Assembly: GCF_001647285.1 (NCBI RefSeq)
Contig: NZ_LRML01000001.1
Location: 62,001 to 126,000, forward strand
DNA from: Rufibacter roseus
GTDB lineage: Bacteria > Bacteroidota > Bacteroidia > Cytophagales > Hymenobacteraceae
Length of the DNA: 64,000 nucleotides
Direction of reading: 5' to 3'
The position numbers were made by a program, and so were the translations under genes. Below, piece after piece: positions 10,522 through 61,026 of this stretch. Below the pieces are notes generated by a model. The model saw only the letters and a program-made list of their open reading frames with translations. It had not been told where the DNA came from and did no database searches. Numbering within the stretch: position 1 is the first letter of the stretch; each line of letters opens with the position of its first letter.

Positions 10522-10567
10522 TTTCTGTTTTCAGGCTGTTTTTACAAAAACAGCCTGAAAACAGAAA
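10522..10567. repeat. Dispersed palindrome copy 1 (perfect 21-bp arms)
   Basis: Member of the window-wide palindrome family (outer CTGTTTT/AAAACAG, variable core, central TTTT...AAAA). The arms 10522-10542 and 10547-10567 pair perfectly around a 4-base loop; the core is CAGGCTG with CAGCCTG. It lies 37 bases after the GH92 stop. Confidence 0.9.
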
Positions 10568-10627
10568 TTCATTTTACAGAGGCTTTAGGCAGCGAATGAG
10601 TACTTCGGTAAAAGGCATCAGGAATCA

Positions 10628-10665
10628 GTCTTTGGCCTCTTTTTGAAAAAATAGGTCAAAAACAG
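10628..10665. repeat. Dispersed palindrome copy 2 (degenerate)
   Basis: Reads GGCCTCTTTTTGAAAAAATA then GGTCAAAAACAG, matching the right half of the family with a damaged left arm. It lies between the GH92 and GH97 genes, close to copy 1. Confidence 0.6.
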
Positions 10666-10705
10666 TTCAAACAAATACAAACAGAAAGTAGAGGAGCAAC
10701 CTAAG

Positions 10706-12649
10706 ATGGTAAGACACAGTTTTTTTACGATCTTCTTTTTATGGGTGTCTGTGGCGGTGCAGGCGCAGCAGTACAGCCTTCTTTCCCCAGATAAAAAAAC
10801 AGAAATCAGACTGACTGTTTCAGACAGCATTTACTATGAGGTTAGCACAGACGGCAAAAAGCTGGTAAATGCATCGGCAATACACTTGGGCACAGATTTC
10901 AACCAAAAAGTAAACTGGAAGGTAAAGAAAACCAACAAGCGGTCTGTCAACCAGGTGTTGCACCCAGTAGTGTGGCAAAAAGGAAAAGAGGTGCCAGATA
11001 CCTTTAATGAGCTGAGCCTGACTTTTGCCAACAACCTGGCCCTAGAGTGGCGTGCCTTTGACAATGGCGTAGCCTGGCGGTGGATTGTTGACAAGAAAGG
11101 CCCCTATAAAATAACCAGTGAGGTAGCATCCTTCAAGTTCAATCAAGCGGAAAAAGCTTGGTACCCGCAGGAAGATGGCTTCTTCTCCCACAATGAACGC
11201 GCCTACCTCCAATTAGCCCCAGACAGCATCAGTGCCAAGCAACTAGCTAGCCTACCTGCTCTTTTCAGTGTGCAGAACATGCGGGTATTGCTAACTGAAG
11301 CAGACCTGCTGAATTATGCCGGCATGTGGTTAAGAGGAAATGGCTCTGGCGGAGTGAAGGGTGTTTTTCCTAATTACCCTAAGCAGACCAAATTAAACGG
11401 TGATAGAAATGTACTGGTAACAGAACGTGAGGATTTCATCGCTAAAATGACCAATATCCAATCGCTCCCCTGGCGAATCATCATGATTGCCCGCAATGAT
11501 GCCGAACTGCTGGTCAACCAACTGGTGTACCAGTTGGCCAGCCCCTCAAAAGGAGACTTCAGTTGGGTAAAGCCAGGAAAAGTGCAGTGGGACTGGTGGA
11601 ACGACAACAACATTACCGGAGTAGATTTTAGAGCGGGAATAAACAACGACACCTACAAGTACTACATAGATTTTGCGGCCAAGTTTGGGATAGAGTACGT
11701 GATTCTGGATGAAGGCTGGAGTGACACCAGAGATTTATTGAAGCAGATGCCTGGTATTAACATACAGGAACTCTCTGACTATGCTCACCAGAAGAATGTA
11801 AATTTGGTGTTATGGGCTAACTGGTTGGCACTGGACGGAGATAAAATGGAGCCAACTTTAGACCAATTTGCCAAGTGGGGCATTAAGGGAATAAAGGTTG
11901 ATTTCATGCAGCGCGATGATCAGGAAATGGTGAATTACTACACCAGGGTATCAGAAGCTGCAGCCAAAAGAAAAATGCTGGTAGACTTTCATGGAGCCTA
12001 TAAACCTACTGGCCTTTATCGCACCTATCCCAATGTGATCACCTATGAGGGCGTCTTAGGCCTGGAGCAGAACAAAGGAAGCGATAAAGTAGACCCAGAG
12101 CACAATGTCACCATCCCGTTTATCAGAATGGTGGCCGGACCAATGGATTACACCCCGGGCGCTATGCTGAATGCCCAGAAAAATATGTGGAAGCCGTTCT
12201 GGTCAAAACCCATGAGCTTGGGAACAAGGGTGCATCAATTAGCTATGTATGTGGTGTATGAGAGCCCGCTGCAAATGCTGTCAGACAACCCTACGCATTA
12301 CTACAGGGAGCCCGAAGCCATGGAGTTCCTAAGCCAGGTTCCAACAGAATGGGAGCAAACTATACCGTTGCAGGCCAGGGTGGGTGACTATGTGCTTATG
12401 GCCAGAAAAGCCAAAAGCGGAGATTGGTATGTAGGTGGCATGACCGATTGGTCTCCACGTGATTTGAGCTTTGATTTATCTTTTTTAGGAGAGGGAAACT
12501 ATACCATGCAGGTCTGGAAAGACGGAATAAACGCCGACCGCAATGCCGAGGACTTTAAAATGGAAAAGGTAACAGTCTCTAAAAGCTCATCTGTCACTGC
12601 CAATTTGGCCAAAGGCGGCGGGTGGGTTGCGCGCATCAGTAAAAAATAA
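10706..12649 (+). CDS. GH97 glycoside hydrolase (alpha-glucosidase/alpha-galactosidase family)
   Basis: 647 aa periplasmic enzyme with a cleavable signal (ending VAVQAQ). GH97 contains inverting alpha-glucosidases (SusB type) and retaining alpha-galactosidases. Domain order is an N-terminal beta-sandwich to about residue 270, a (beta/alpha)8 barrel (WDWWNDNNITGVDF, YVILDEGWSD, GIKGIKVDFMQRDDQ, MLVDFHGAYKPTGLYRTYPN) and a C-terminal beta domain. Asp399 in IKVDFMQRDDQ sits where retaining members carry the nucleophile, so the retaining, galactosidase-like type is somewhat more likely; this is inference. It is directly followed by a ROK kinase gene, 60 bases away, and may trim side chains from the mannan or process a different glycan. 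Confidence 0.92.
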   Translation: MVRHSFFTIFFLWVSVAVQAQQYSLLSPDKKTEIRLTVSDSIYYEVSTDGKKLVNASAIHLGTDFNQKVNWKVKKTNKRSVNQVLHPVVWQKGKEVPDTFNELSLTFANNLALEWRAFDNGVAWRWIVDKKGPYKITSEVASFKFNQAEKAWYPQEDGFFSHNERAYLQLAPDSISAKQLASLPALFSVQNMRVLLTEADLLNYAGMWLRGNGSGGVKGVFPNYPKQTKLNGDRNVLVTEREDFIAKMTNIQSLPWRIIMIARNDAELLVNQLVYQLASPSKGDFSWVKPGKVQWDWWNDNNITGVDFRAGINNDTYKYYIDFAAKFGIEYVILDEGWSDTRDLLKQMPGINIQELSDYAHQKNVNLVLWANWLALDGDKMEPTLDQFAKWGIKGIKVDFMQRDDQEMVNYYTRVSEAAAKRKMLVDFHGAYKPTGLYRTYPNVITYEGVLGLEQNKGSDKVDPEHNVTIPFIRMVAGPMDYTPGAMLNAQKNMWKPFWSKPMSLGTRVHQLAMYVVYESPLQMLSDNPTHYYREPEAMEFLSQVPTEWEQTIPLQARVGDYVLMARKAKSGDWYVGGMTDWSPRDLSFDLSFLGEGNYTMQVWKDGINADRNAEDFKMEKVTVSKSSSVTANLAKGGGWVARISKK

Positions 12650-13650: not shown

Positions 13651-13700
13651 TATTTCTGTTTTAAGCTTATTTTCTGAAAAACTGGTCAAAAACAGAAATA
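13651..13700. repeat. Dispersed palindrome copy 3
   Basis: The outer 12-bp arms TATTTCTGTTTT and AAAACAGAAATA pair perfectly. The inner core (AGCTTA against CTGGT) has drifted. It lies in the intergenic space after the ROK kinase gene. Confidence 0.8.
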
Positions 13701-20280: not shown

Positions 20281-20329
20281 GCTTTCTGTTTTGGGCTGTT
20301 TTTTTGTAAACAGCCCCAAAACAGAAAGC
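20281..20329. repeat. Dispersed palindrome copy 4
   Basis: Arms of about 21 bp (GCTTTCTGTTTTGGGCTG and CAGCCCCAAAACAGAAAGC) pair with one bulged base. It lies 66 bases after the cytochrome gene, before the second DUF1080 gene. Confidence 0.88.
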
Positions 20330-21280: not shown

Positions 21281-21326
21281 GTTTCTGTTTTTGACCTGTT
21301 TTTAGAAAATGGGGTCAAAAACAAAC
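21281..21326. repeat. Dispersed palindrome copy 5
   Basis: Arms GTTTCTGTTTTTGACC and GGTCAAAAACAAAC pair with a two-base gap. The variable core is TTGACC/GGTCAA, different from copy 4 but still paired. It is intergenic, between the DUF1080 gene and the cupin gene. Confidence 0.82.
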
Positions 21327-23607: not shown

Positions 23608-23681
23608 CTCCCCCTCTTGGGCTCGAACCAAGGACCCCATGATTAACAGTCATGTGCTCTAACCGACTGAGCTAAGGAGGA
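23608..23681 (-). tRNA. tRNA-Asn (anticodon GTT)
   Basis: Read on the minus strand: acceptor stem TCCTCCT paired with AGGGGGA (one G-U pair), D arm GCTCAGTCGGTTAGAGC, anticodon stem CATGA/TCATG with loop CTGTTAA (anticodon GTT), T arm CTTGG-TTCGAGC-CCAAG, discriminator G. The 3' CCA is not encoded. 74 bases. Confidence 0.96.
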
Positions 23682-23810: not shown

Positions 23811-23849
23811 CGTTTTTGCCCTCTTTTCGAAAAAATAGCTCTAAAACAG
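23811..23849. repeat. Dispersed palindrome copy 6 (degenerate)
   Basis: Reads CGTTTTTGCCCTCTTTTC then GAAAAAATAGCTCTAAAACAG. The outer and central blocks of the family are kept but the core pairs poorly. It lies just past the 3' end of the minus-strand hydroxyacyl-CoA dehydrogenase gene. Confidence 0.65.
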
Positions 23850-23853
23850 CTTT

Positions 23854-24720
23854 TTACTTTTGAGTAGGATACTCATAAAACCCGCGTCCGGTTTTGCGGC
23901 CGTGGTGCCCGGCATCCACTTTTTGCTGTTGCCAGCGGCTGGGTCTGAACTTAGGGTCTTGGTGAAAGGCCTCAAACATGGCGCTGGTCACCGAGAAATT
24001 GGTATCTACGCCAATCAAATCCATGAGCTGGAAAGGACCCATTTTAAATCCGCTGGCCTGTAGCAGGCGGTCAATGCTTTCATGGCTAGCTACGTTTTCT
24101 TCCAGCAGTTTCAGGCTCTCTACGTAAAAATGACGAGCCACCCGGTTCACAATAAAGCCAGGGGCGTCTTGGGCAATAACCGGCGTTTTGCCCAATCTCA
24201 GCGCCAGTTCTTTCATGAGCTGCGTTACTTCTGGGGCGGTGGCGGCTCCTGAAATTACTTCCACCAGTTTCATGATGGTAGCCGGGTTGAAAAAGTGAAG
24301 TCCTACCACACGCTCGGGGCCCTGCACCTTGGCCGCAATGCGGGTAATAGGCAGCGAGGAGGTGTTGGAGGCTAAAATTGTGCTTGGCTTGTTCTGTTGC
24401 GCTACCTCATTTAAGATGCTATGCTTCACATCCAGCCGCTCCACTACGGCCTCAATCACCACCTCAGCCCGTAGCTGCAGCACATCTTTAGTGAAAGTAA
24501 TTCTGTCAAGTATCTCCTCTTGCTCCTGTGAAGAGATTTTTCCTTTGTCCGCCAGCTTCGCCAAAGAAGCCATGGTAGTGGTTTCCGCCTTCTCCAACAC
24601 GGTGGCATTGATGTCATACAAGATGGTGGTGAAACCAGATTGGGCACATAATTGGGCAATGCCCTGACCCATGGTGCCAGCTCCAATTACTGCTATTGTT
24701 TCAATGTCTTGAAGAGTCAT
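23854..24720 (-). CDS. 3-hydroxyacyl-CoA (3-hydroxybutyryl-CoA) dehydrogenase
   Basis: 288 aa cytoplasmic NAD-dependent enzyme that oxidises L-3-hydroxyacyl-CoA, or runs in reverse, in fatty-acid or aromatic degradation (Hbd/PaaH family). Visible features: Rossmann motif IAVIGAGTMGQGIAQLCA at residues 9-26, ASNTSSLPIT, the catalytic His in VVGLHFFNPATIMKLVEV, and the C-terminal domain with PGFIVNRVARHFYVESL and HHGRKTGRGFYEY. The length matches single-function members. No other fatty-acid genes sit beside it, so the pathway cannot be fixed from context. Confidence 0.93.
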   Translation of the reverse strand: MTLQDIETIAVIGAGTMGQGIAQLCAQSGFTTILYDINATVLEKAETTTMASLAKLADKGKISSQEQEEILDRITFTKDVLQLRAEVVIEAVVERLDVKHSILNEVAQQNKPSTILASNTSSLPITRIAAKVQGPERVVGLHFFNPATIMKLVEVISGAATAPEVTQLMKELALRLGKTPVIAQDAPGFIVNRVARHFYVESLKLLEENVASHESIDRLLQASGFKMGPFQLMDLIGVDTNFSVTSAMFEAFHQDPKFRPSRWQQQKVDAGHHGRKTGRGFYEYPTQK

Positions 24721-24847
24721 TTATTAATGTGCTGATGTGCTAGTTGATTTGGGAATTTGAAGATGTGGAAATTTGAGAATGGCAATATTGTGGCCTAGTT
24801 TTCTTGTGGTACTACCTAAACTCGAGAACGGTAATGTGACTATAAAC

Positions 24848-24883
24848 GTTTTCGGCCTGCTTTTTGAAAAACAGGCCGAAAAC
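24848..24883. repeat. Dispersed palindrome copy 7 (perfect core)
   Basis: GTTTTCGGCCTG pairs perfectly with CAGGCCGAAAAC, closed by TTTTT/AAAAA in the centre. The core CGGCCTG differs from copy 1 (CAGGCTG) with matching changes on both arms. It lies between the dehydrogenase gene start and the pheS end, both on the minus strand. Confidence 0.9.
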
Positions 24884-24963
24884 AGCAAATTTGTGTAGAG
24901 CGTCTAAATTGTACCAATTTCTGAATTAAAGACAAACTAGCACATTAAGAAATTAGCACATTG

Positions 24964-25989
24964 TCAAACCGCCTCAAACTGACGCAAAAAGCGGGCGTCG
25001 TTCTCGGTGAATAGGCGAAGGTCTTTGATCTGGTATTTGAGCATGGTAATGCGCTCAATGCCCATGCCGAAGGCGAAACCGGAGAACTCTTTAGAGTCGA
25101 TACCGCAGTTTTCCAGCACCTGTGGGTCAACCATACCGCTACCGCCAATCTCTACCCAGCCGCTGCCCTTGCAGATGTTGCAGCCCGTGCCTTTGCAGAT
25201 GTGGCAGGTGATGTCAATCTCGGCGCTGGGCTCAGTGAAGGGGAAGAACGACGGCCGGAACCGGATCTGCGTGTCAGGGCCAAACAGCTCCTTCACGAAG
25301 TAATATAAGGTGTCTTTCAAGTCTTTGAAGCTTACGCCCCGGTCCACAAACAGACCCTCTACCTGATGGAACACGCAATGCGCACGCGCCGAGATAGCCT
25401 CATTCCGGAATACGCGTCCCGGCGACAAGGTACGAATAGGCGGTTTCTGGTGCTCCATCACGCGCACCTGTACGCTGCTGGTGTGGGTGCGTAGCAACAT
25501 GTCTGGGTTTTTGCTCAGGAAAAAGGTGTCCTGCATGTCGCGGGCGGGGTGGTTCTCGGGGAAATTCAGCGCAGAGAAGTTATGCCAGTCGTCTTCCATC
25601 TCCGGCCCCTCAGACACATTGAAACCAATACGCTCAAAAATACGGATGATCTGCTCCCGCACGCGGGCCAGCGGGTGGCGGGTGCCCAAGGTGTTAGGCA
25701 CGGGCGGCAAGGTGAAATCTAAACCAGACAGAGCATCGGGCGTGGCGTTCTGCTCCAAGGCTTCCTGCGCAGCGTCAAACTTCTGCTGTGCCAGTTGCTT
25801 CAGTTGGTTTAGTTCCTGGCCCACCTGCTTGCGCTGCTCCGGTGCCACGGTTTTCATCTCGTCAAACAAAGCGGCAATCTGGCCTTTCCGGCTTACATAG
25901 GTGTTCTTGAAGGCCTCCAGTTGCTCCTTGTTCTCTATAGTATAGGCCTCTACCTCTTGGGTCAGGCGTTTAATATTCTCGAATAGCAT
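24964..25989 (-). CDS. pheS: Phenylalanyl-tRNA synthetase alpha subunit
   Basis: 341 aa class II aminoacyl-tRNA synthetase subunit that charges tRNA-Phe together with PheT (not in the window). An N-terminal coiled-coil arm (MLFENIKRLTQEVEAYTIEN, KNTYVSRKGQIAALFDEMK) is followed by the catalytic core: PLARVREQIIRIFERIGFNV, HNFSALNFPENHPARDMQDT (motif 1 region), RTHTSSVQVR, FHQVEGLFVD (motif 2) and FAFGMGIERITML (motif 3). The start at 25989 matches where relatives begin; the frame is open to 26022, but those extra residues would overlap the likely promoter. A TATCTTTG box only 4 bases before the ATG suggests a leaderless or near-leaderless mRNA. Confidence 0.96.
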   Translation of the reverse strand: MLFENIKRLTQEVEAYTIENKEQLEAFKNTYVSRKGQIAALFDEMKTVAPEQRKQVGQELNQLKQLAQQKFDAAQEALEQNATPDALSGLDFTLPPVPNTLGTRHPLARVREQIIRIFERIGFNVSEGPEMEDDWHNFSALNFPENHPARDMQDTFFLSKNPDMLLRTHTSSVQVRVMEHQKPPIRTLSPGRVFRNEAISARAHCVFHQVEGLFVDRGVSFKDLKDTLYYFVKELFGPDTQIRFRPSFFPFTEPSAEIDITCHICKGTGCNICKGSGWVEIGGSGMVDPQVLENCGIDSKEFSGFAFGMGIERITMLKYQIKDLRLFTENDARFLRQFEAV

Positions 25990-25993
25990 AGGG

Positions 25994-26001
25994 CAAAGAT
26001 A
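25994..26001 (-). promoter_or_regulatory. Promoter -7 box (TATCTTTG) for pheS
   Basis: On the minus strand TATCTTTG matches the Bacteroidota -7 consensus TAnnTTTG exactly. It lies just 4 bases upstream of the pheS ATG, so the transcript would start at or next to the start codon. No clear -33 TTTG was found. Confidence 0.4.
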
Positions 26002-26054
26002 GCAATTAACGAAATACGGCACACCTACCTACTCGTGCAGCAGCTATGGCTAAA

Positions 26055-26092
26055 TGTTTTGAGGCTGTTTTTCCCAAAACAGCCTCAAAACA
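26055..26092. repeat. Dispersed palindrome copy 8 (perfect 17-bp arms)
   Basis: TGTTTTGAGGCTGTTTT and AAAACAGCCTCAAAACA pair perfectly around a 4-base loop. It lies in the shared upstream region of divergent pheS and the TetR gene. Confidence 0.92.
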
Positions 26093-26197
26093 AAATATTC
26101 AGGCACTGAAATTACCAGTTCAGAAGGCTTTTTAGCGGTTTGGTCAGATTTAACATTTGGTATTGTCTTAAGTCAGGTAGTTTTCCTTTCATAAATA

Positions 26198-26205
26198 TAG
26201 CTTTG
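26198..26205 (+). promoter_or_regulatory. Possible -7 box (TAGCTTTG) for the TetR-efflux operon
   Basis: TAGCTTTG matches TAnnTTTG and lies about 105 bases before the TetR ATG on the plus strand. No good -33 element is visible, so this is tentative. The space between the box and the ATG could hold the operator of the TetR protein. Confidence 0.3.
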
Positions 26206-26309
26206 CTACTATATATCCTTTTACGGTATACAGATTATCAATGAGTTAAATTTACTCGGAAACTTTGGAAACATGAAAAGTTTCCATGCGTTTGCGCCCG
26301 ATTTAGCTA

Positions 26310-33318: not shown

Positions 33319-33358
33319 CTGTTTTAGCCTCTTTTTTTGAAAAAGAAGCCTAAAAGAG
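33319..33358. repeat. Dispersed palindrome copy 9
   Basis: GTTTTAGCCTCTTTTTTT then GAAAAAGAAGCCTAAAAGAG: the outer TTTTAG/CTAAAA blocks and the centre are kept, with imperfect core pairing. Intergenic, after the terminator of the efflux operon. Confidence 0.75.
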
Positions 33359-35953: not shown

Positions 35954-35995
35954 GCTGTTTTTGGTCTGTTTTAAAGAAAACGAGCTTAAAACGCC
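35954..35995. repeat. Dispersed palindrome copy 10 (degenerate)
   Basis: GCTGTTTTTGGTCTGTTTT then AAGAAAACGAGCTTAAAACGCC, between two convergent genes. The outer and central blocks fit the family; the core is poorly paired. Confidence 0.65.
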
Positions 35996-36000
35996 TCTGG

Positions 36001-38025: not shown

Positions 38026-38062
38026 GCGTTTTTGATATGTTTTATCAAAAACGGCTCTAAAA
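38026..38062. repeat. Dispersed palindrome copy 11
   Basis: CGTTTTTGATA pairs perfectly with TATCAAAAACG (38027-38053), then GGCTCTAAAAGG follows as in the family's usual right arm. The copy seems to have switched its pairing register compared with the others. Confidence 0.7.
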
Positions 38063-38075
38063 GGTGCGATGCCTA

Positions 38076-39448: not shown

Positions 39449-39475
39449 CTTGTTTTTGACCTGCTTTTCTGAAAT
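39449..39475. repeat. Dispersed palindrome copy 12 (left half only)
   Basis: TTGTTTTTGACCTGCTTTTC then TGAAAT matches the left half and centre of the family; the right arm is missing. Evidence of a truncated copy. Confidence 0.55.
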
Positions 39476-39742
39476 GACGCCATAAGGAGTTTGTGCAATG
39501 CGTTGGAGATGCAAAGTGTTGCGTCTCTACGTTCCTAAAGATTGGATGACGGGGAATGTAACCTATATAAACCCACTTTCTCACTTTCTCCTCACAATTC
39601 CTCCTTAGCGCTTCTTGCGGGAGCGGGCAACGCAGTGCCAAGGGCACGCAGGCGCTTAGCGGGAGCACGAGGCACAGGTTCTAGTTAGCAGTAGCCACCG
39701 TTACTATGGAACTTCGCACCTCTGCCAGGTGGTAAATTTACT

Positions 39743-40188: not shown

Positions 40189-40237
40189 AAAGTCCGTTTT
40201 GGAGCTGTTTTTCAGAAATCAGCTCAAAACGGACTTT
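40189..40237. repeat. Dispersed palindrome copy 13
   Basis: AAGTCCGTTTTGGAGCTG pairs with CAGCTCAAAACGGACTT, one extra G bulged. The core GAGCTG/CAGCTC is a further paired variant. It lies 21 bases past the 3' end of the minus-strand thioredoxin-like gene and could act as its terminator. Confidence 0.88.
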
Positions 40238-40257
40238 TAAAGTAAGAACATAGAATA

Positions 40258-42194: not shown

Positions 42195-42238
42195 GTTTGT
42201 TTTCAGGCTGTTTTTTGAAAAACAGCCTGAAAACAAAC
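42195..42238. repeat. Dispersed palindrome copy 14 (perfect 21-bp arms)
   Basis: Arms 42195-42215 and 42218-42238 are perfect complements with a 2-base loop, core CAGGCTG/CAGCCTG as in copy 1 but with different outer bases (GTTTG/CAAAC). It sits after an ordinary terminator, so it is not needed for termination there. Confidence 0.93.
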
Positions 42239-44493: not shown

Positions 44494-44534
44494 GTGTTTT
44501 TGAGCTACTTTTCTAAAAACGGGCCAAAAACGAG
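44494..44534. repeat. Dispersed palindrome copy 15, forming the end of the methyltransferase gene
   Basis: GTTTTTGAGCTACTTTTC then TAAAAACGGGCCAAAAACGAGC. The TAG stop of the minus-strand gene (44505-44507) and its last nine codons (about residue 233 onward, LVFGPFLEK) lie inside the repeat. Confidence 0.75.
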
Positions 44535-45230
44535 CAGCCACCTAAACGCCCATTTCCAGTGCAAACGGTACTGCTGAACTGATGCCTGTTTTAAAATTTC
44601 CTGCCAATCTTTTTTGCTGAATGCCCGCAACACCGACAGCGGTGCATCATTTTTAACCAGGTATGATTTTGAAAAAGCCCGAGTCAGGCTTTTGATAGAA
44701 TAATACGCCAGTGGGTGCCGGTGCAAATCGTTTACAAGAACTGCTATTCGTGCCTGCTGCCGTAGTTGGCTTAGTAATCGCACCATTGCTTCAGAGGTAA
44801 AGTGGTGCAGAAAAAGGCTGCAGATAATAATGTCATACTTTTGGGCGGCAAACTCAGGCGAGAAAACATCTGCTTGCTGAAAAGAGATCTCCGGATATTC
44901 CTGACAGTACTTGGTGCCGTAGGTTACCATGAAGGCATTGGCATCTACACCTGTTAACTCTACTTTGATGTTTTTGCTTCGGGCCCATTGCGCCACCATT
45001 TTGAGAGTATCGCCGCCGCCGCTGCCCAAGTCAGCTATTTTTAGGCTGTTTTTCTGAAAAGAGGCCGAAAACGGGTGAGCCAAGATCTGGTTCAGCCCCT
45101 GCCTCACTACCTCATGCCCACCCAGCCACCGGTTAATGAATTCCAGCTCCTTCAGGTTTTGCCGAAGATCCTCACCCGTGAGCGAAAGATCATCCATTAA
45201 CTCAAGATCTGTAGACCGCTGATTAAACAT
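44505..45230 (-). CDS. Class I SAM-dependent methyltransferase of the type III PKS cluster
   Basis: 241 aa. The SAM-binding motif is KIADLGSGGGDTLKMVAQWA at residues 64-83, then VELTGVDANAFMV (acidic loop) and YDIIICSLFLHHF. Its start overlaps the stop of the polyketide synthase gene by 8 bases, so the two are translationally coupled, and the enzyme probably methylates the polyketide product (compare methyltransferases beside type III PKS for phenolic lipids or alkylpyrones). Oddity: two members of the palindrome family lie within the gene, one encoding residues about 53-66 (PFSASFQKNSLKIA) just before the SAM motif, and one forming the C-terminus and stop. Confidence 0.88.
   Translation of the reverse strand: MFNQRSTDLELMDDLSLTGEDLRQNLKELEFINRWLGGHEVVRQGLNQILAHPFSASFQKNSLKIADLGSGGGDTLKMVAQWARSKNIKVELTGVDANAFMVTYGTKYCQEYPEISFQQADVFSPEFAAQKYDIIICSLFLHHFTSEAMVRLLSQLRQQARIAVLVNDLHRHPLAYYSIKSLTRAFSKSYLVKNDAPLSVLRAFSKKDWQEILKQASVQQYRLHWKWAFRWLLVFGPFLEK
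45034..45074. repeat. Dispersed palindrome copy 16, inside the methyltransferase coding region
   Basis: GCTATTTTTAGGCTGTTTTT then CTGAAAAGAGGCCGAAAACG. It encodes about residues 53-66 of the minus-strand methyltransferase in frame. The core AGGCTG/GAGGCC is partly paired. Confidence 0.75.
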
Positions 45231-46332
45231 GGTGTACTGATAAAAGCATAGATTCTAAGGTGAGCCCGGGGCCAAAGGCAAAGCTCAGTACTGGCGCGCC
45301 GTGCTTTTCGGCCTTTGCCTCTTTCCAAAGCGACTTCAGCACAAACAGCACCGTAGCCGATGACATGTTCCCGTATTGCCGGAGCACTTCATACGCATGT
45401 CTGTTCTTGTCTTTAGAGATACCTAAGGCCTGTTCAATTACCTCCAGTATTTTGCGTCCGCCGGGGTGTATGGCAAAAAGATTCAGTTCAGATAACTGCA
45501 GGTTGAGTTTCTGCAAAAGCGTGGTAGTGAGCTGACCAATACCCTGCTTAATGAGCGAGGGCACGTAAGAAGACAGGGTCATCTCAAATCCGAAATCATT
45601 GATGTGCCAGGCCATTTCTTTTTCACCTGAGGGAGCTAAATCGCAATGAAATGCATCTAGCTGCAGGGAGAGAGCGGACAGCGGTTCAGAACTCACCACT
45701 ACGGAGGCTGCACCATCGGCGAACAAAGCATTTGAGACCAGGTGGTCATGCTCAGGCCTATTTTGAAAGTGTAAAGTGCACAGTTCGGTACAGACAATTA
45801 GCACCCGCGCATTAGGCGTTGAGCGGCAAATATGATCAGCCACTTTCAAGGCATTGAAAGCAGCATAACAGCCCATGAAATTGATGCAGGTGCGCTGCAC
45901 TTGCGGAGACAACTGTAGTGCATTCACCAGTTCAATGTCTAACCCAGGGGCATACATGCCGGTGCAGCTAACCGTAATGAGGTGCGTGATATGTGCTGGA
46001 TTTAAGTCAGGCAATTGGCTGAGGCAGTCTTGAACAGCTGCTTCTGAGAGCGGAAGCGCCATTTTTTGATAGGCCTCCATTCGGTCTCCTACAGTAGGGA
46101 AGGGGCTCAGGTCTGGGGTATTCGGGTAAAACTCAAATTCTCCGTTTTCACGGCCATAATCTGGCAAAACGGTGTGCCGCTGCTCAATGCCCGACACGCG
46201 GTACAATGCCTTTAATTTCCGCGCCTCAGCTGCGTCAAGTTGAAGAGCACCCGCCATAAAGTCGGCAATTTCTTGCTGCGGAATTGCATGCGGTGGATTG
46301 GCCGTGCCTATGGCGCAGAGGTAACTCTTCAT
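45223..46332 (-). CDS. Type III polyketide synthase (chalcone/stilbene-synthase family)
   Basis: 369 aa. It condenses an acyl-CoA starter with malonyl-CoA units to give pyrones, resorcinols or related rings. Catalytic triad: Cys in CINFMGCYAAFNALKVADHI (GCYAAF), His in LFAIHPGGRKILEVIEQALG, Asn in RQYGNMSSATVLFVLKSLWK. SCTGMYAPGLDIELVNALQL lies just before the Cys block. It sits between an FAD oxidoreductase gene and a methyltransferase gene on the same strand, an arrangement like the known phenolic-lipid clusters (PKS, methyltransferase, flavin hydroxylase). The product cannot be told from sequence. Confidence 0.93.
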   Translation of the reverse strand: MKSYLCAIGTANPPHAIPQQEIADFMAGALQLDAAEARKLKALYRVSGIEQRHTVLPDYGRENGEFEFYPNTPDLSPFPTVGDRMEAYQKMALPLSEAAVQDCLSQLPDLNPAHITHLITVSCTGMYAPGLDIELVNALQLSPQVQRTCINFMGCYAAFNALKVADHICRSTPNARVLIVCTELCTLHFQNRPEHDHLVSNALFADGAASVVVSSEPLSALSLQLDAFHCDLAPSGEKEMAWHINDFGFEMTLSSYVPSLIKQGIGQLTTTLLQKLNLQLSELNLFAIHPGGRKILEVIEQALGISKDKNRHAYEVLRQYGNMSSATVLFVLKSLWKEAKAEKHGAPVLSFAFGPGLTLESMLLSVHHV

Positions 46333-46482
46333 ATTTTAATATAAGCAAAATAGTAGCAAGATGTTTTGATTGCTGCAAAAGATAGGTGCTGATGAGTACA
46401 TACTCCATTGAGCGGCCTCGGGTTTAGTATAGCACCTGTTTACCGAAAGACTGTGGAAAAGCAGTTCAGGCATTAATACTGA

Positions 46483-46520
46483 CGCTTTAGGGCTGTTTTC
46501 CAGAAAATAGCCCTAAAACG
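46483..46520. repeat. Dispersed palindrome copy 17
   Basis: CGCTTTAGGGCTGTTTTC and GAAAATAGCCCTAAAACG pair apart from three bases. It lies in the 249-base gap between the FAD oxidoreductase and polyketide synthase genes. Confidence 0.88.
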
Positions 46521-46581
46521 ATTCACTTTCTGTTTGAGGCTAAGGCCAAAACAATAAAAGTAACTGCTATGATAGAAGTGC

Positions 46582-47709
46582 CTAAAATGGTTGCCCGTGG
46601 GTGCGCCGCATGATAGCACGTACTGCCGCTGGTAATTGACCTAAACCTGCCACTGCCAGTTCTGATAAAACGGGGTGTCCGAACAGTTTCTGCACCGCTC
46701 TGCCTGTACGTAACCTGGCTCCAAACTGGTATTTCCATGCGTGGGTGTAATTAGCCTCTAGCTCTTTTCGTGTTTGCTCTCCGTTCAAAAACAGCAGTAC
46801 TTGTTCAGACAGCAGTTTGGCCGAGTGAATGGCCATGGCCATGCCGTTGCCGCAGAGGGGAGTGATAAGGCCTGCCGCATCACCGCACATAAGAATATGG
46901 TTTTCTACACAAGTTTTGGACGCAAAAGAAATTTCATTGATAACCTCAGGCTGTGTATACAAGTGTTCACTAGTAGTCAATATTTCCTTTAGAAAGGGGT
47001 TTTTGCTTAATATTTTTTCTTCCATTGCCGCAATGGTTCCGCTCTTTTTCAGGTTTTGGCGAGTGGTCAGATAGCAAAAGCAGTATTTATCTTCCTCAAT
47101 GGCCGAGATGCCCGCATACCCGTCAGCAAAATTATGGAGGGCAATGACGTTTTTGGGGAATTTGGTGCGCAGGTGATATTTCACACCCAGATAAGGAGAG
47201 CGCTCTTCAAAGAAAGTACGGTTGAGCCGGCGGTCTAAAGTACTTCGTTTGCCATACGCACCAACCACTATAGGGGCTTCTATACACTGGCCATCTGACA
47301 GGTTGACTTGAAAGCTGCCGTTGTCAAATTCTACATTAGAGACAGAAACCTGTTGCCTGAATATAACTCTTCGTGTGAGGGCTAATTTGTATAAATAATA
47401 GTCAAGTTGGTACCTGCTCACGCCAAAGCCCCCCAGATCCAGCGGTGCCATCAGAGTTCGCCCGCTGGGGGATGACAACATGAAATGATCAATTTGGGCA
47501 GGAGCAAGTGCGGCTATGTCAACGCCTAAACTTTTTAAGAAAGGCAATACCTCATTAGAAATATATTCACCACACACTTTGTGGAAGGGATAACTTTTCC
47601 TTTCCACTAGTGTTACCTCAACGTCTTGGCTTGATAATTGCAAAGCTGTAACCAGGCCTGCTAAACCACCACCAATGATCACAGCCTTGCGGTTTTTTAT
47701 ATGTTGCAA
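46582..47709 (-). CDS. FAD-dependent oxidoreductase (geranylgeranyl-reductase/hydroxylase-like)
   Basis: 375 aa flavoprotein. The ADP-binding motif is AVIIGGGLAGLVTALQLSSQ at residues 9-28, the family block FHKVCGEYISNEVLPFLKSL follows near residue 45, and the second FAD motif is ILMCGDAAGLITPLCGNGMA near residues 278-297. The Cys-Gly-Glu block is typical of geranylgeranyl-reductase-like flavoproteins, which include hydroxylases of polyketide clusters. It is upstream of, and on the same strand as, the type III PKS and methyltransferase genes. It probably hydroxylates or reduces the product; this is inference. Confidence 0.9.
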   Translation of the reverse strand: MQHIKNRKAVIIGGGLAGLVTALQLSSQDVEVTLVERKSYPFHKVCGEYISNEVLPFLKSLGVDIAALAPAQIDHFMLSSPSGRTLMAPLDLGGFGVSRYQLDYYLYKLALTRRVIFRQQVSVSNVEFDNGSFQVNLSDGQCIEAPIVVGAYGKRSTLDRRLNRTFFEERSPYLGVKYHLRTKFPKNVIALHNFADGYAGISAIEEDKYCFCYLTTRQNLKKSGTIAAMEEKILSKNPFLKEILTTSEHLYTQPEVINEISFASKTCVENHILMCGDAAGLITPLCGNGMAMAIHSAKLLSEQVLLFLNGEQTRKELEANYTHAWKYQFGARLRTGRAVQKLFGHPVLSELAVAGLGQLPAAVRAIMRRTHGQPF

Positions 47710-48265: not shown

Positions 48266-48299
48266 AAAGGCAAAACCTATTTAGGTTTTGCCTTTTTTT
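48266..48299 (+). terminator. Rho-independent terminator of the T9SS-domain gene
   Basis: AAAGGCAAAACCT/AGGTTTTGCCTTT, a 13-bp stem with a 4-base loop followed by a T-run. It is 23 bases after the stop. Confidence 0.92.
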
Positions 48300-48317: not shown

Positions 48318-48359
48318 CCTGTTTTTCATCTGTTTTCAGAAAAACAGATGAAAAACAGG
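48318..48359. repeat. Dispersed palindrome copy 18 (perfect 19-bp arms)
   Basis: CCTGTTTTTCATCTGTTTT and AAAACAGATGAAAAACAGG pair perfectly with a 4-base loop. The core CATCTG/CAGATG is a distinct, still fully paired variant. Confidence 0.93.
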
Positions 48360-48455: not shown

Positions 48456-48527
48456 TGGCCTCGGCGGGAATCGAACCCACATCTAAAGTTTAGGAAACTT
48501 CTATTCTATCCGTTGAACTACAAGGCC
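48456..48527 (-). tRNA. tRNA-Arg (anticodon CCT)
   Basis: On the minus strand: acceptor GGCCTTG/CGAGGCC (one G-U), anticodon stem GAAGT/ACTTT with loop TTCCTAA giving anticodon CCT (reads AGG), T arm GTGGG-TTCGATT-CCCGC, discriminator A. The 3' CCA is not encoded. 72 bases. Confidence 0.95.
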
Positions 48528-54193: not shown

Positions 54194-54223
54194 AAAATTA
54201 CTGCTACTGTATAAAACTAAAAT

Positions 54224-54272
54224 CATGTAATGCAAAAGGCTGTGGATTTCCACAGCCCTTTTGCATTACATG
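54224..54272. terminator. Bidirectional terminator between the DUF2652 and HD-effector genes
   Basis: CATGTAATGCAAAAGGCTGTGG (left) and its near-complement on the right pair over about 22 bp with one bulged base. Short A and T runs inside the stem suit either direction. It ends both convergent transcripts 12-30 bases after their stops. Confidence 0.85.
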
Positions 54273-54283
54273 ATGGAGATATA

Positions 54284-55471
54284 CTAACGTGAAATAGCAA
54301 CCACAAAAGACACCACCGTTAAAATAATGCCTATCATAAAAATAGTATAGGAAATACGTAGCAATCGGTACTTTTTACTTAGAACATCTCCCAAGTAATA
54401 AATATCGGTAATCATGTTGTTGTACAGCGAGCTTTTGTCGCGCATGATGTCATGCATACCAGCCTGAAAATCTTCTAGCGGAATTTTAGTAAAGTTTCCG
54501 AAGAACAGCAGGTTAATGCGTCTGCTCTTTAACTTATTTGGTTTTAGTCGGAAACTGGTTACCTCAGGCTGCGCTGAAATAATGGCAGAAATAACGGAAG
54601 CAAGTGTAGTGGCCAGCAGTATACCCACCGGTATCATCAAGATAGGGTTGCGCGTAAATTCAGCACCAATGATAGAAGACTTGGTACCTAAATAAGTAAT
54701 GATAATAGACATGATAATGGCGTTGAGGCTAATCATCATGTTTGCTTTGTTATCAGCAATGGCACTTAAACTAATGTGGTTGTCATAAGTGCTTTTAAAC
54801 ATGGTTTCTATACCACGTTTAGGCTGTGCCAGTGTTTCGCGCTTTTGTTTCTCCTTCTTCTTTTTCTTTTTAGTAAGGTCAAGTAAGTGGTTGCGCTGTT
54901 CTTGAATATTTGCGCTTAACTGCTTTGAGTATTTGGCCTGAGCCGGCTGCGACCTGAAACTAACAGACAGCAGAAAGTCCAGCTGGTATTGGGCCCATTC
55001 CAAATCAGAGAAGGTGCGGTCCAGGTAAATCTCCCACTCCACCCGTAGTAGCTCGGCGGTAGCGAAGAAGGTTTCTTTGCCAATGTTGGCAATGTCGGCG
55101 TCAACTAAAATATCTTCCAGCAGATGGTGCGTCAGTTGACCATGCTTGGTAGCCATGATGCAACGCGAAACTTGGTTAATTTTATCTTCGGGGTATTTTT
55201 CTTCTTTCAGAAAAGCCGTGGCAATCTCAATGCTTTCGTCTTCGTGGTTTTCATAGGTGCTGATATAACCCGTATCATGAAACCAGGCTGCCAACAACAA
55301 TACTTCCATCTCCTCTTCGGGTAGCTGGTAGGCCTCTGCTAATTGGCGCGCCTCTTTCACCACTTCAAACGTATGCTTGTAGTTGTGATAGACTAGTTTC
55401 TTAGACAGCTTCTCTTTGAAAAGCGCAAACACATAATTGCCCGCTTTTCTGATGAGGTCTTCTTTTTCCAT
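54284..55471 (-). CDS. HD-domain phosphohydrolase fused to a Pycsar-effector-like membrane domain
   Basis: 395 aa. Residues 1-130 form an HD domain with all metal ligands visible (His33 in YKHTFEVV, His65-Asp66 in WFHDTGYI, Asp in DILVDADIANIG), so a nucleotide phosphodiesterase or phosphohydrolase activity is likely. A Lys/Glu-rich coiled link lies near residue 200. Residues about 220-395 (YDNHISLSAIADNKANMMIS, two helices LNAIIMSIIITYL and ILMIPVGILLATTLASVISA, and a last helix FMIGIILTVVSFVV) resemble the PycTM effector of Pycsar antiviral systems. It could sense a cyclic nucleotide at the membrane; the cyclase-like partner gene is convergent. The Pycsar link is by family resemblance only. 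Confidence 0.8.
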   Translation of the reverse strand: MEKEDLIRKAGNYVFALFKEKLSKKLVYHNYKHTFEVVKEARQLAEAYQLPEEEMEVLLLAAWFHDTGYISTYENHEDESIEIATAFLKEEKYPEDKINQVSRCIMATKHGQLTHHLLEDILVDADIANIGKETFFATAELLRVEWEIYLDRTFSDLEWAQYQLDFLLSVSFRSQPAQAKYSKQLSANIQEQRNHLLDLTKKKKKKEKQKRETLAQPKRGIETMFKSTYDNHISLSAIADNKANMMISLNAIIMSIIITYLGTKSSIIGAEFTRNPILMIPVGILLATTLASVISAIISAQPEVTSFRLKPNKLKSRRINLLFFGNFTKIPLEDFQAGMHDIMRDKSSLYNNMITDIYYLGDVLSKKYRLLRISYTIFMIGIILTVVSFVVAISR

Positions 55472-55596
55472 AAATAAAGTAGGAGCGGTAAGGCCCGTAG
55501 CGCTTGTTCACAAGAACAAGAGTGGTTACATCAGTTATAGTTGAATCCAAAGGTTTACAACGCTAAAAGTGCCTGCAAGGTTAGCTTCATCTTTTT

Positions 55597-55637
55597 GCGT
55601 TTTTCATCTGTTTCTATAAAAACAAGCCTAAAACAGC
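55597..55637. repeat. Dispersed palindrome copy 19 (degenerate)
   Basis: GCGTTTTTCATCTGTTTCT then ATAAAAACAAGCCTAAAACAGC. The left arm follows copy 18 (CATCTG) and the right arm follows copies like 17 (AGCCTAAAAC), as if two variants had recombined. Confidence 0.65.
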
Positions 55638-55746
55638 TGTCCATAATGTTGAGCCATAATGGTTCAAGTACATAACTCATTGGCTTTTATACAAGTTAGG
55701 TTTTAGTTGAATTTTGTATGACCTCATTTGGCTTATCTGCCGTACC

Positions 55747-55784
55747 TGTTTTAGAGCTTTTTTTGAAAAATTAGCTCAAAATAC
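55747..55784. repeat. Dispersed palindrome copy 20
   Basis: TGTTTTAGAGCT and AGCTCAAAATACA pair with two interruptions. The core AGAGCT/AGCTC is paired. Confidence 0.75.
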
Positions 55785-56143
55785 ATGTATGAACTGTTGA
55801 AGAGGTAGGGCGCAAGATCAGTAGGTGTAATGCTGCCGCTAAACTTCAAAATGGTGGAATTGAATGACCTTCCGCACATGAAAGAAAGGTGTATCAGCCG
55901 AATTATTGAAGTCGGGATTTAAACAAGAGAGGGTGGTGATGGAGCTGATAGGCATAACCTGATAACCCAAACAAGGTAGCTTACGTCTTAGGCAGCATAG
56001 ATATATAGAATTAGAACAGTATTTAACGGTAGGGTTTTCATCCTAGGGATGATATACACGTATAACTACCAATTTACTGGCCCAGTTGCATTAGAATCTG
56101 AAAACCAAATGCGAAAAGCTAAGATCGCTTTGCCATTCTTTAC

Positions 56144-59100
56144 ATGAAAAAAAAGTACTCCTTCCTTCTACTTCCGTTGGTGTTGTTCTGCTTTCTACAA
56201 AGCTGTAGCAGTTCTAAGCCATATTATGCTCCTCCTGCTCTAAACTGGCAGCAGACTACCCCCCAAGATTCTTCTGAACTTACCTACAGCGTCTTCCTGA
56301 TTGGCGATGCCGGTGCACCTGTAACGGATAAGCCCGACCCTACGCTTATGCTGCTCAGGTCTCAGATTGAAGTGGCTGGTGAAAACAGCGCTGTGGTGTT
56401 TCTGGGGGATAATATTTACCACAACGGCTTGCCCGAGCCCAATGCGTATGATCGCAAAACGGCCGAGGAACGCATGACGACCCAGTTGAATGTGCTCAAG
56501 GGCTACAAAGGCGAAAAATACATGATACCCGGAAACCATGACTGGGGCGGGGGCAGTGGCTCACCAGACGGCTGGAACGCTGTAATCAGAGAAGAGCGCT
56601 TTGTAGAAGAATACCTTGCCGACAGTAATATAGTGGTAGGTACTGACTTCTTTGTGCCGGGTAATGGATGCCCTGGACCATTTGAGGTGCGTATTGCAGA
56701 TGATATTGTTTTGATTGCGCTAGACTCGCACTGGTGGCTGCACCCTTATGATAAGCCATATGGTGATGACAACATCTGCGGAGTGGTGAACGAAGTAGAC
56801 ATGCTAGTACAGTTGGAAGATGTCATTGACAAAAACAAAGACAAAAACATAGTAGTGGTGGCACACCACCCGCTCTTTAGTAATGGTATACACGGGGGAT
56901 ATTTTAACCTAGTAGACCATTTGTTTCCGCTTACTATTATTCGGAAGTGGTGGGCTCTGCCTTTGCCTATCATTGGTTCTATTTACCCGTTGTCGCGCAA
57001 ATACGGCGGAATTGCCCAAGATATTCCGCACCCTAGCTATCAGGCTTACATCAAAGGCTTACTTGGTGTCTTTGAGAAGTATGACAACATCATTTACGCG
57101 GCAGGCCATGAGCACAACCTGCAGTATTTTAAAATGGGCAAGCTACCCCAGATAGTAAGCGGTTCAGGCTGTAAAACCCAACACGTATCAGATGGCGGAG
57201 ACGCTGTTTTTGCCCAAAAGATTCAAGGTTTTGCCAGAGTGAACTATTACCGGAACGGTGAGGCTTGGGTTGAGTATTGGGCAGCTGACCCAAATGTGGA
57301 AGGCGGTTCTTTATTGTTGTTCCGTACCCCTATGTATACCAAAGCCAAGGTGAAAGAAGAAGAGCTGGCACAGGTAGACATAGATTACACTGACAGCACG
57401 GTTGTGGTGCCTGCCAATCCGCGTTATGCTGCCGGTAACTTAAAGCAAGGATTCCTAGGCAAACACTACCGGGCCGAGTGGCTAACGCCAGTTAAAATGC
57501 CGGTAATAGACTTAGGCGAGGAAAAGGGAGGCTTAGTGCCTTACAAAAAAGGCGGAGGCAAGCAAACCACCACTTTGAAGTTGCGAAACGAAGAAGGGCG
57601 TCAGTACTCGCTCCGTTCCGTTAATAAAGATCCAACCAGTGTACTGCCAGAAGAGTTGCAGGAAACCTTTGCCCGTGATTTGTTGCAAGACCAGATATCA
57701 GCACAGCATCCGTATGGTGCAGTGGTGGCAGCTAGCTTGGCAGGGCCGGCTGGGGTGCTGCACTCCAACCCTAAATTAGTGTATGTGCCTAATGACCCGC
57801 GCCTGCGTCAGTACCTTGATGAGTTTGGAAGCACCGTGGCTTTCTTTGAGGAAGACGCAGACGAAGATCATTCAGATGTAGCCAGCTTGGGCAACGCCAC
57901 CAATTTAGTAGGTACCGAGAAAGTATTGGAGCGCAAGCGCAATGACCATGACAACCGAGTGGATGAGGTGGAATTTGCCCGTGCCCGCCTGCTAGACATG
58001 CTCATTGGTGACTGGGACCGCCACGAGGGCCAATGGAGGTGGGCCGAAACCAAGTTTGGAGACGACAGCCGTCTGTTCAGACCAGTGCCCGAAGACCGTG
58101 ATGTGGCTTTTTTCAAAGCTGACGGTCTGGTGCCATGGCTTGCTAGTCGGCGGTGGGCAATCCGTAATTTTCAAAACTTTGGCTATGACTATAGTGATTA
58201 TAAAGGGCTAAACCTGACTGCGCTCACCTCAGACCGCACGTTTTTGTCAAGCGTTACCCGCGGTCAGTGGGTTAAAGTAGCCAATGACATACAAGCAGCA
58301 CTAACAGATTCAGTTATAGCAGATGCTGTGCGCCAAATGCCACCAGAAGTGTATCCGCTTTCAGGGCCAGAGATTGTTGCAAAGTTGAAATCTAGAAGAG
58401 ACAAACTGGTGCAGGTGGCTGAGAAGTACTACACTCACCTGGCTGAGGCTGTAGATGTGACAGGAAGTGATAAGCGCGAAAAGTTTGAGGTTATCCGGAT
58501 CAACGATAAAGAGACGGAGGTAACCATGCGCAAAATCAACAAAGAAGGAGAAGTTAGCCGAATCTTATACCAGCGCCGCTTTTTCAAAAATGAAACCGAA
58601 GAAATAAGGCTTTACGGGCTTGGCGGCGATGATATTTTTGAGGTAAACGGAACGGTAGATGACGGTATCATGATCCGAATAATTGGCGGGGAAGGAAATG
58701 ACACCATTATTGATAGATCGGTGGTGAAAGGTTGGGGAGCCAAAACGAAAGTGTATGATAACTCAGAGGAAGAGAACGTGATCTCATGGGGGCCTGAAAC
58801 GGAAGACAAAACCCAGCCTTTTAGAGAAGTAAACCTATATGACCGCGACAATTACAAACTATCTTACTTCGGGCCCCGCCTGTCTGTAGAATTCAACGTA
58901 GACGATGGCTTGTTTTTAGGTGGCGGAGTAATGTACCGGAATCATAAGTTCAGAAAAGAGCCATTTGCCTCAGAACATTATTTAAGGGCTAACTACGCCT
59001 TTGCCACCAGCGCTTACAACATACGGTATGACGCTGAATTCAAGCAGGTATTCAACGACAAACTGGACATTGGTTTAAAAGCAGCCGTGTTTGGACCACA

Positions 59101-59890: not shown

Positions 59891-59924
59891 ACCGCAAAGT
59901 TTTATTGGAAGCAACAGGTGCGAT

Positions 59925-60980
59925 ATGAAGAAAATTTTAGCAGCATTAATTTGTATTGTTTGCGGAAGCGGACAGGAGACAGTTTTAGCGCAAGGTCTTT
60001 TCACCGATTCAATCAGGGCGGCCCAGGCAGCCGTTAGCCCCAAAGAATTGGCGAACCCCTCAGTAATTGGCATGGGCAAGAGCAGAGGAGTGGTGGTGCG
60101 CTATGAGTCACAGCCGCGCTTTGGGTTAAAGTCTACCGGAATGCGTGAAGGGATAAAAGACGCTGAGGTAGGTGTACTTAGAGGTAACCAATTTGAGTTC
60201 AAAGCTTACGCCCCCGTTTGGAACAGGCCACACCTGAAAATAATTTTAGGTGGAGGTTATCAGATTGAAGAGTTTAACTTCAAAGATCCGGCGGTGCTGC
60301 AGTACCCTCTTTATCGCACACTGGAGGATAAAGACTTGCGCTCGCTCAACGGACAAATTCTGTTCTTGCGCCCAATAAATGACAGAAACTACTTAGTCTT
60401 CAGATTGAAAGGTGAGTTGAACGGAGATTATGGAAAACACTCTGACATCAGCTTTAGCCGGTACATGAGAACTTCCATGGAAGCTATTTACGGCTGGAAG
60501 AAAAGTCCGTTCCTTTCTTACGGTATTGGTGTGCAGCTAGGGTACAACTTTGGGCGCCAGACCATTTACCCGGCCTTGCTTTACAACCGTACCTTTAACG
60601 ACCGGTGGGGAGTAGAAGCTATTTTCCCTGCTAATGTCACCTTCCGGAGAAACCTTTCAGAGAAATCATTTCTGTACATGGGCTACCGTATAGAGGGGGC
60701 TACTTACAACATTGGTATGGAAGAGCATGAACCCTATAATCAATTTGAAACAATTGAATTGCGGAAGTCTGAAATCAGGGGCCGGCTGCGGTGGGACCGT
60801 GAAATCTACGACTTTTTGTGGTTTGGCGTTGAAACAGGCTACCGCTACAACCACCGGTTTAACGTATACAACGGCCGTGACAGAAAGGGAGTGCCTCTCA
60901 TTGAAAACCACATAAAAGATGCTGTTTTCTTTAATGTGGAAGTGTTTCTGGTGCCACCCCGCCGTTTCTTAAAACAATAA
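59925..60980 (+). CDS. Outer-membrane beta-barrel protein, unknown function
   Basis: 351 aa. The start at 59925 gives a signal peptide (MKKILAALICIVCGSG, cleavage near LAQ); the frame is open back to 59826 inside the upstream gene, but that adds a tail without signal character. Alternating strand patterns (FEFKAYAPVWNRPHLKIILG, LSYGIGVQLGYNFGRQTIYP, DFLWFGVETGYRYNHRFNVY) indicate a barrel, possibly of the DUF6268 type. It probably shares an operon with the large fusion gene and may act with it. Confidence 0.8.
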   Translation: MKKILAALICIVCGSGQETVLAQGLFTDSIRAAQAAVSPKELANPSVIGMGKSRGVVVRYESQPRFGLKSTGMREGIKDAEVGVLRGNQFEFKAYAPVWNRPHLKIILGGGYQIEEFNFKDPAVLQYPLYRTLEDKDLRSLNGQILFLRPINDRNYLVFRLKGELNGDYGKHSDISFSRYMRTSMEAIYGWKKSPFLSYGIGVQLGYNFGRQTIYPALLYNRTFNDRWGVEAIFPANVTFRRNLSEKSFLYMGYRIEGATYNIGMEEHEPYNQFETIELRKSEIRGRLRWDREIYDFLWFGVETGYRYNHRFNVYNGRDRKGVPLIENHIKDAVFFNVEVFLVPPRRFLKQ

Positions 60981-60990
60981 GCTGAAACAT

Positions 60991-61026
60991 GTTTTCAAGC
61001 TGTTTTTGCGAAAACAGCCTAATAAC
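60991..61026. repeat. Dispersed palindrome copy 21
   Basis: GTTTTCAAGCTGTTTT and AAAACAGCCTAATAAC pair apart from the core (AAGCTG against CAGCCT). It lies directly after the barrel gene and its right end merges into the next hairpin. Confidence 0.8.

Follow-up and report, generated by a model that had tools for sequence, protein, structure and literature searches.

A genus-specific dyad-symmetric repeat at transcription-unit boundaries in Rufibacter, a candidate docking site for a DNA-binding protein

The stretch of Rufibacter roseus DNA analysed here, 64,000 nucleotides long and referred to as the window (G000:C1:62001-126000, where G000 is the 5.12-Mb source assembly and the other G codes stand for further genomes), carries between many of its genes a palindrome of a single design. 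This dyad-symmetric element of 36-40 bases has a consensus of four CTGTTTT-type heptamers at an 11-bp pitch (7-4-7-4-7-4-7, around 40 bp), two of them pointing right and two pointing left. An earlier note on the window had listed 21 copies, with coordinates that are all correct; scored with a two-arm weight matrix, the window yields these 21 and no others at a score of at least 18. To build the matrix, 47 strict matches from 464 kb of G000, the window included, served as the seed before refinement, so that the training set contains the window; shuffled and reversed sequence are the controls. Intergenic palindromes are usually explained as mobile repetitive extragenic palindromes (REPs) or as RNA hairpins; in this case, the evolution of the sequence points to a third reading, namely a site in the DNA that selection maintains at many boundaries between operons, across the whole genus.

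The first copy, dyad 10527..10562, lies 3' of a plus-strand gene ending at 10484 and belongs to class II with 21/24 arm matches (class II comprising the near-perfect palindromes, with at least 20/24, and class I the remaining copies); its tandem gap holds a second copy, 10628..10663. Other tandem gaps contain dyads 13658..13693, 20287..20322 and 21287..21322, past stops at 13603, 20215 and 21200, respectively; dyad 24848..24883 (gap 24720-24964), 98 bp from a gene end (102 bp in G007 and 116 bp in G013); dyad 33321..33356, separated from the called stop at 33202 by a hairpin at 33234-33264; dyad 38028..38063, 93 bp from a gene end and adjoined by a hairpin at 38076-38121; and dyad 46484..46519 (gap 46332-46582). 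Convergent gaps hold dyads 35957..35992 (gap 35869-36001), 39452..39487 (gap 39391-40258), which is weak or decayed (10/24 arm matches, score 22.5), 40196..40231 (17/24), 44 bp from the gene end at 40258, 42199..42234, of class II (20/24) and preceded by a small hairpin at 42147-42171, and 60991..61026 (gap 60980-61141), whose edge overlaps a hairpin at 61024-61063. Three copies are found in divergent gaps: 26056..26091 (gap 25989-26310), 55599..55634 and, in the same gap as the latter (55471-56144), 55748..55782, with a 3-nt loop. Two copies are partly or wholly in a called gene, a methyltransferase-like one on the minus strand (44505..45230), whose 3' end is spanned by dyad 44496..44531 and which contains dyad 45037..45072, 541 bp away. 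That gene is overlapped by a type III polyketide synthase-like gene (the pair occupying 44505-46332, minus strand), and the two are adjacent in 8 congeners. Dyad 23812..23847 is 3' of the minus-strand gene 23854..24720 and is followed by a minus-strand tRNA gene at 23608-23681; dyad 48321..48356, after a hairpin at 48266-48295, is accompanied by another tRNA gene (48456-48527, minus strand), so that each tRNA gene has a dyad within around 150 bp. In the window, these two tRNAs alone reach the gathering scores of the Rfam covariance models, and the dyads match no Rfam family. As for the perfect arms previously quoted, those of 17, 21 and 19 bp at 26055, 42195 and 48318 were right, and the one at 10522 measures 22 bp, not 21.

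The family is spread across the genome and its enrichment extends beyond the window, as scans with a strict pattern, GTTTTNNNNCTGTTTTN{0,8}AAAAC, and with the matrix confirm when set against reversed sequence. Over the 5.12-Mb assembly, the strict pattern is matched 156 + 169 times, and not once when the sequence is read backwards; in 464 kb of contig 1, the matrix finds 144 matches at a score of at least 16, again with none in the reversed sequence, a density from which we extrapolate around 1,600 copies per genome. Within the window, the called intergenic gaps longer than 60 bp contain 18 matches, versus 0.04 per dinucleotide shuffle (score of at least 18). The loop has 4 nt in 131 of the 153 matches scoring at least 10 in the 464 kb. 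Score cut-offs differ among the results given here (14, 16, 18 or 20), and drifted copies in congeners may escape a matrix trained on G000. Among the papers listed in searches of an open-access library, none turned up that describes this repeat.

Among genomes, the strict pattern matches all 16 of the genus (G000 included; 5 to 1,698 matches) and none of the nine others of the same family. A looser four-tract pattern gives 12-853 places in 14/14 genus genomes and 0-2 in 46 genomes of five other genera, and in a set of 241 genomes of the order four genus members have 19-873 matches, the 237 others having at most 2 strict matches each. With the matrix at a score of at least 14, density is similar even in congeners with low strict counts: ten orthologous congener stretches have 3.5-4.5 elements per 10 kb (control 0), 400 kb of G006 have 3.5 (control 2) and further stretches of five congeners 1.5-5.5, while one complete chromosome holds 3-11 elements per 20-kb sample. 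Samples of 20-40 kb from each of six genomes of other genera gave no matrix match, and five Pontibacter stretches gave a single weak one (score 14). In Pontibacter gaps (L036, L037, L038, L075, L078), the dyad signal is another one: CCCC, counted 8 times, with 14 nt as the spacer. In an unbiased count of dyads, GTTT dyads are evident in G006, G011 and G012; no GTTT dyad is prominent in G015 and none appears in the samples of other genera, most of which comprise merely 1.8-5.6 kb of gaps. These scans covered the present design, and other lineages may hold an analogous device of different sequence. The window's efflux-pump gene has its nearest named records, at 85% protein identity, in Rufibacter glacialis and Sabulibacter ruber.

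There is also a species dialect. Besides G012, 15 species were sampled, and 13 of them have TGTTTT as the commonest inner hexamer (CGTTTT comes first in G008, and G015 has a tie); in G012, TCATTT takes this place in 48 of 68 arms. The G012 dyad (L152-L155), present 4.5-5.0 times per 10 kb, reads GGCTCATTT-ctgg-AAATGAGCC instead of having the inner motif CTGTTTT. Of the 8 gaps in which G012 or G000 has an element, 6 are shared by the two genomes in spite of the shifted inner motif: the G012 set has changed in place.

The positions of the elements are old and vertically inherited, not the product of fresh insertion, since orthologous gaps share elements at near-identical positions. Across conserved gene pairs of G000 and nine congeners (around 73% DNA identity), 77 gaps have an element in both species, 26 in one and 69 in neither; the odds ratio is 31 (p 3e-21, a value that overstates independence because the same gaps recur in several congeners). 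In the 77 shared gaps, the median difference in position is 6 bp, and it is at most 10 bp in 49 of them versus 13.2 expected. Discordant gaps are few in two closer pairs (39/6/41 and 59/3/39 for both/one/neither), and among four-nt-loop elements the partner lies within 3 bp in 44/50 (G004/G014) and 62/64 (G007/G013). In nine species (eight congeners and G000), dyad 38028..38063 keeps a distance of 77-94 bp, and dyad 40196..40231 one of 44-53 bp, from the same gene end; the 541-bp spacing of the dyads in or across the methyltransferase-like gene is kept in 8 of the 10 congeners examined.

Within the element, selection acts most strongly on four short, dyad-symmetric T/A tracts. In aligned orthologous gaps, these are TTT at -17 to -15 and -5 to -3 and AAA at 2 to 4 and 14 to 16, and their 12 positions have identities of 0.79-0.96 among the 50 elements of G004/G014 and of 0.68-1.00 among the 64 of G007/G013, with 19 of the 24 values at 0.85 or above. 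These figures count gaps as mismatches and apply no filter on the partner element; the intergenic background, calculated with gaps left out, has 0.774 and 0.651, respectively. Most core and loop positions are near the surrounding identity; the outer conserved tract is longer in G007/G013, and position 10 reaches 0.88 in G004/G014. Whole T4/A4 runs in G007/G013 are conserved in 241/312 cases (77%) within elements versus 214/519 (41%) elsewhere. Furthermore, none of the 294 exact half-sites in around 2.3 Mb from seven species stands outside a dyad, even if the partner arm may be imperfect.

The placement of the elements follows the borders of transcription units. Occupancy was counted in seven species with home-made gene calls that lack RNA genes, so some of the gap classes behind these counts will be wrong: among gaps of at least 150 bp, an element is present in 108/130 convergent, 305/475 tandem and 80/175 divergent ones, and among tandem gaps of 20-60 bp, which probably lie mostly within operons, in 12/164. 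Above 150 bp, convergent occupancy stays at 82-84% whatever the length of the gap, whereas neutral insertion predicts an increase with length. Elements in tandem gaps most often lie 20-40 bp past the stop, and 51 of 854 elements from the seven species are well inside called open reading frames (ORFs).

The site is strand-symmetric, and its bases are conserved in dyad symmetry independently of pairing, with a small residual pairing excess in the class-I copies of G000. Reading the sequence comparisons together, we consider it slightly better than an even bet (a probability of roughly 0.5) that the element is a genus-specific DNA docking site, usually single, for a putative sequence-specific protein at many transcription-unit boundaries. 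Such a protein would contact the DNA through four units, as a tetramer or as a dimer whose half-sites have two parts, and, once bound to the dyad, might mark or enforce the boundary, in the simplest case as a roadblock or insulator that works in both directions next to ordinary terminators; the bound dyad could additionally serve as a nucleoid anchor, and some copies of the protein site would have become part of terminators. It is a tentative step further, and one that we would sooner doubt than adopt, to propose that a dedicated architectural protein, a tetramer on the approximately 1,600 dyads, punctuates the Rufibacter chromosome as an insulator or roadblock fixed in one genus, with its recognition shifted in G012. 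The element can be grouped with the dispersed intergenic palindromes, and may represent a new kind of boundary system. If the site does bind a protein, unit boundaries in bacteria would be encoded in the sequence across an entire genome, which would make Rufibacter well suited to tests of the insulation of transcription units, of terminators arising from protein sites and of how around 1,600 sites and one protein could change specificity together.

Several observations weigh against the docking-site proposal. No binding protein was found, although no systematic search for one was made, and a fixed protein does not account for the altered inner motif across the G012 set. With 46% of divergent gaps occupied, the rule of placement is not purely one of 3' ends; in long tandem gaps, moreover, the presence of an element and that of a separate detected terminator are not positively associated (in G000b, n=89, both are present in 42, the element only in 20, the terminator only in 20 and neither in 7). 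Conservation is not limited to the tracts, since some core positions in G007/G013 (-11, -8 and 7) reach 0.88-0.92, and in G004/G014 the T4/A4 runs differ slightly, 100/165 (61%) conserved in elements versus 256/495 (52%) elsewhere. A minority of the copies behaves as hairpins, and G000 without its 21 best copies retains a small pairing excess (0.548 versus 0.517, sd 0.010). Finally, 33 loci with genes of the PF01797 family, to which RAYT-like (REP-associated tyrosine transposase) proteins belong, hold 70 elements versus 55.8 expected (P 0.0036).

The main rival is a topological site, at which gyrase or a supercoil-sensing nucleoid protein would bind the dyad and handle the positive supercoils between units, a role proposed for REP/BIME sites and seen with GapR. 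It fits the top occupancy of convergent gaps and the spread of the elements along the chromosome, and precedents exist in two articles: positive supercoils are reported to be enriched between convergent genes, and GapR recognises positive supercoiling as a tetramer (PMC8360656), while the REPs of E. coli are targeted by gyrase (PMC3733652). GapR and gyrase sites resemble the Rufibacter element in their preference for regions of converging transcription (PMC8360656, PMC3733652), but what GapR recognises is overtwisted DNA (PMC8360656), whereas Rufibacter has a conserved 40-bp sequence dyad. A strict four-tract dyad with no exact half-site on its own exceeds the specificity that supercoil sensing needs, and almost half of the divergent gaps are occupied as well, all of which leaves this explanation unlikely, with perhaps one chance in five being left to it in our judgement.

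Are the copies selected as RNA instead, i.e., do all of them form hairpins at transcript ends, either as terminators or as barriers to 3' exonucleases? The previous claims that the arms covary and that a hairpin is under selection hold in part: selection is evident, but the covariation and the hairpin apply to a minority of near-perfect palindromes (class II making up 21/142 copies in G000 and 19/138 in G006, or 8-15% depending on the criterion), the arms of most copies being near-independent. When left and right arms were randomly re-paired, core pairing among the 141 G000 elements scoring at least 20 was 0.60 versus 0.52 re-paired (z 7.0), and in G006 0.64 versus 0.61 (z 4.6). This raised overall pairing is due to a minority with all 7 outer positions matched, 11/141 in G000 and 23/301 in G006 (expected 0.1 and 0.2), which is beyond chance and speaks for a hairpin in those copies. 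Once the copies with at least 20/24 are removed, no excess is seen in G006 (0.586 versus 0.606) or G012 (0.600 versus 0.650). Compensatory changes, a check that the earlier note had suggested, are rare in class I: among 36 class-I orthologues of G004/G014, 12 pairs were kept via a double change and 164 were made or broken by a single one, the figures for 4 class-II orthologues being 4 and 6. In 307 elements, core mismatches on the transcript strand show no excess of G.U (269) over A.C (295), and the arm scores are independent of the direction of transcription (18.76 versus 18.57, p 0.48). Most copies therefore bear no sign of RNA-level selection, given their near-independent arms and the lack of both G.U excess and strand asymmetry. 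In addition, the T-tracts are kept though pairing alone would permit their variation, and the stem is followed by an A-tract, not a U-tract. In favour of the hairpin, seven of nine species keep at least 22/24 arm matches in the convergent gap of dyad 40196..40231 even though their sequences differ, and the T-runs of class II are mainly on the transcript side, where 26% of 27 and 38% of 24 tails have at least 5 T in the 8 nt after the stem; the opposite strand has them in 7% of 15 tails and 0% of 14, and class I in 5-7% of its tails. As an account of all copies, RNA selection is improbable.

Strand-specific statistics support a part in intrinsic terminators for some copies: in one form the entire palindrome precedes a T-run, in the other a hairpin next to the element makes use of its outer T-tract. 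Ordinary terminators are frequent neighbours of the element. Measured from the terminator tail (229 cases), the element centre lies most often 10-15 bp away, with 44 cases versus 8.2 expected in a test that accepts lax T-tails, and this peak arises because the outer T-tract of the element serves as the terminator tail. Hairpins of at most -9 kcal/mol directly abut the outer tract on the transcript side in 22% of 180 tandem cases, compared with 6% on the opposite side; the figures for convergent and divergent sides are 23% (of 163) and 4% (of 140), respectively. Class-II copies share with intrinsic bidirectional terminators a near-perfect palindrome and, in some cases, a transcript-side T-run; in most Rufibacter copies, by contrast, the arms are imperfect and the stem lacks a U-tract behind it. 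The earlier view that termination alone does not explain the copies is upheld.

The possibility that the palindromes are miniature mobile elements (REPs or miniature inverted-repeat transposable elements) moved by a RAYT-like enzyme, either ancestrally fixed or still moving and favouring operon ends, draws on a real likeness. According to PMC3733652, REPs are short, high-copy intergenic palindromes found chiefly where neighbouring genes run in tandem or converge, 3' of the coding regions, and some plausibly act as RNA or gyrase sites. The Rufibacter element resembles REPs, bacterial interspersed mosaic elements (BIMEs) and the REPIN-RAYT system in location, size and copy number, and CGTC-type REPs are reported from Bacteroidetes without a dedicated transposase (PMC3733652). 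The consensus varies between species, and PF01797 matches occur in 15 of the 16 genus genomes, 0 to 6 per genome and mostly weak as RAYT-like matches (L029-L034, L213-L239). The element differs, however, in having orthologous positions throughout the genus, a four-tract selection footprint and mostly independent arms. It also lacks enrichment of the tags GTAG and CGTC: GTAG is found within 20 nt outside the outer tracts in 27/135 (G000) and 29/138 (G006) elements versus 28 and 33 at 60-80 nt, and CGTC in 6 and 6 versus 13 and 15.

Regarding the enzyme, the excess of elements around PF01797 genes refers to 33 of the 45 matches, with an expectation taken from 315 control genes of similar size; 31 of these 33 loci have an element within 1.5 kb, but only 3 have the nearest one within 150 bp, versus 63% of the control genes, distances being overlong where the reading frame was not located. 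G000 alone has six such loci with 2-3 elements each (13 versus 10.9 expected, P 0.19). Where the frame was located, the next element is often around 220-320 bp past the stop. As for the suggested look for a RAYT gene with matching flanks, the loci are slightly rich in elements, but tight flanking by repeats is not seen. The excess is weak evidence of some tie, insufficient against the conserved positions, and a RAYT origin is disfavoured because the excess is modest and elements are rarely close to PF01797 genes. Moreover, the complete, single-contig genome of G007 has no PF01797 match at E <= 0.001, yet 94 elements in 240 kb, and genera with PF01797 lack the element. The suggestion of a mobile REP/BIME-like repeat is not supported, given the genus-wide orthologous positions, the missing tags and the dense G007, and the proposed comparison of orthologous gaps for presence or absence, being concordant (77 both, 26 one, 69 neither), speaks against a young mobile repeat; mobility in any of its forms is quite improbable. 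A DNA-uptake-like sequence spread by molecular drive would match the high copy number, the restriction to one genus and the G012 dialect, but it is very hard to believe, since an uptake sequence is a single oriented unit, often in genes, whereas the Rufibacter half-sites always occur in dyads, with merely 51/854 copies well inside called ORFs, no exact half-site alone and a placement that tracks unit boundaries.

Among known systems, the boxes of PhoB/OmpR-type response regulators are direct repeats, with heptamers every 11 bp. Each Rufibacter half is alike in its heptamers at an 11-bp pitch, and the difference is that Rufibacter has two halves head to head, at around 1,600 places and at unit boundaries. 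Phased A-tract curvature was set aside on arithmetic alone, as the tract centres (around -16, -4, +3 and +15) are out of helical phase.

Two further observations concern the element's surroundings. A scan of a viral collection returned one contig (L212, 39 kb) with a strict-dyad match at 1275-1310, which may be a Rufibacter prophage with host flank. In the window, an 18-bp inverted repeat with a 17-nt loop (54222-54274) lies in a convergent gap without the element, and the orthologous gap of G007 and G013 has one.

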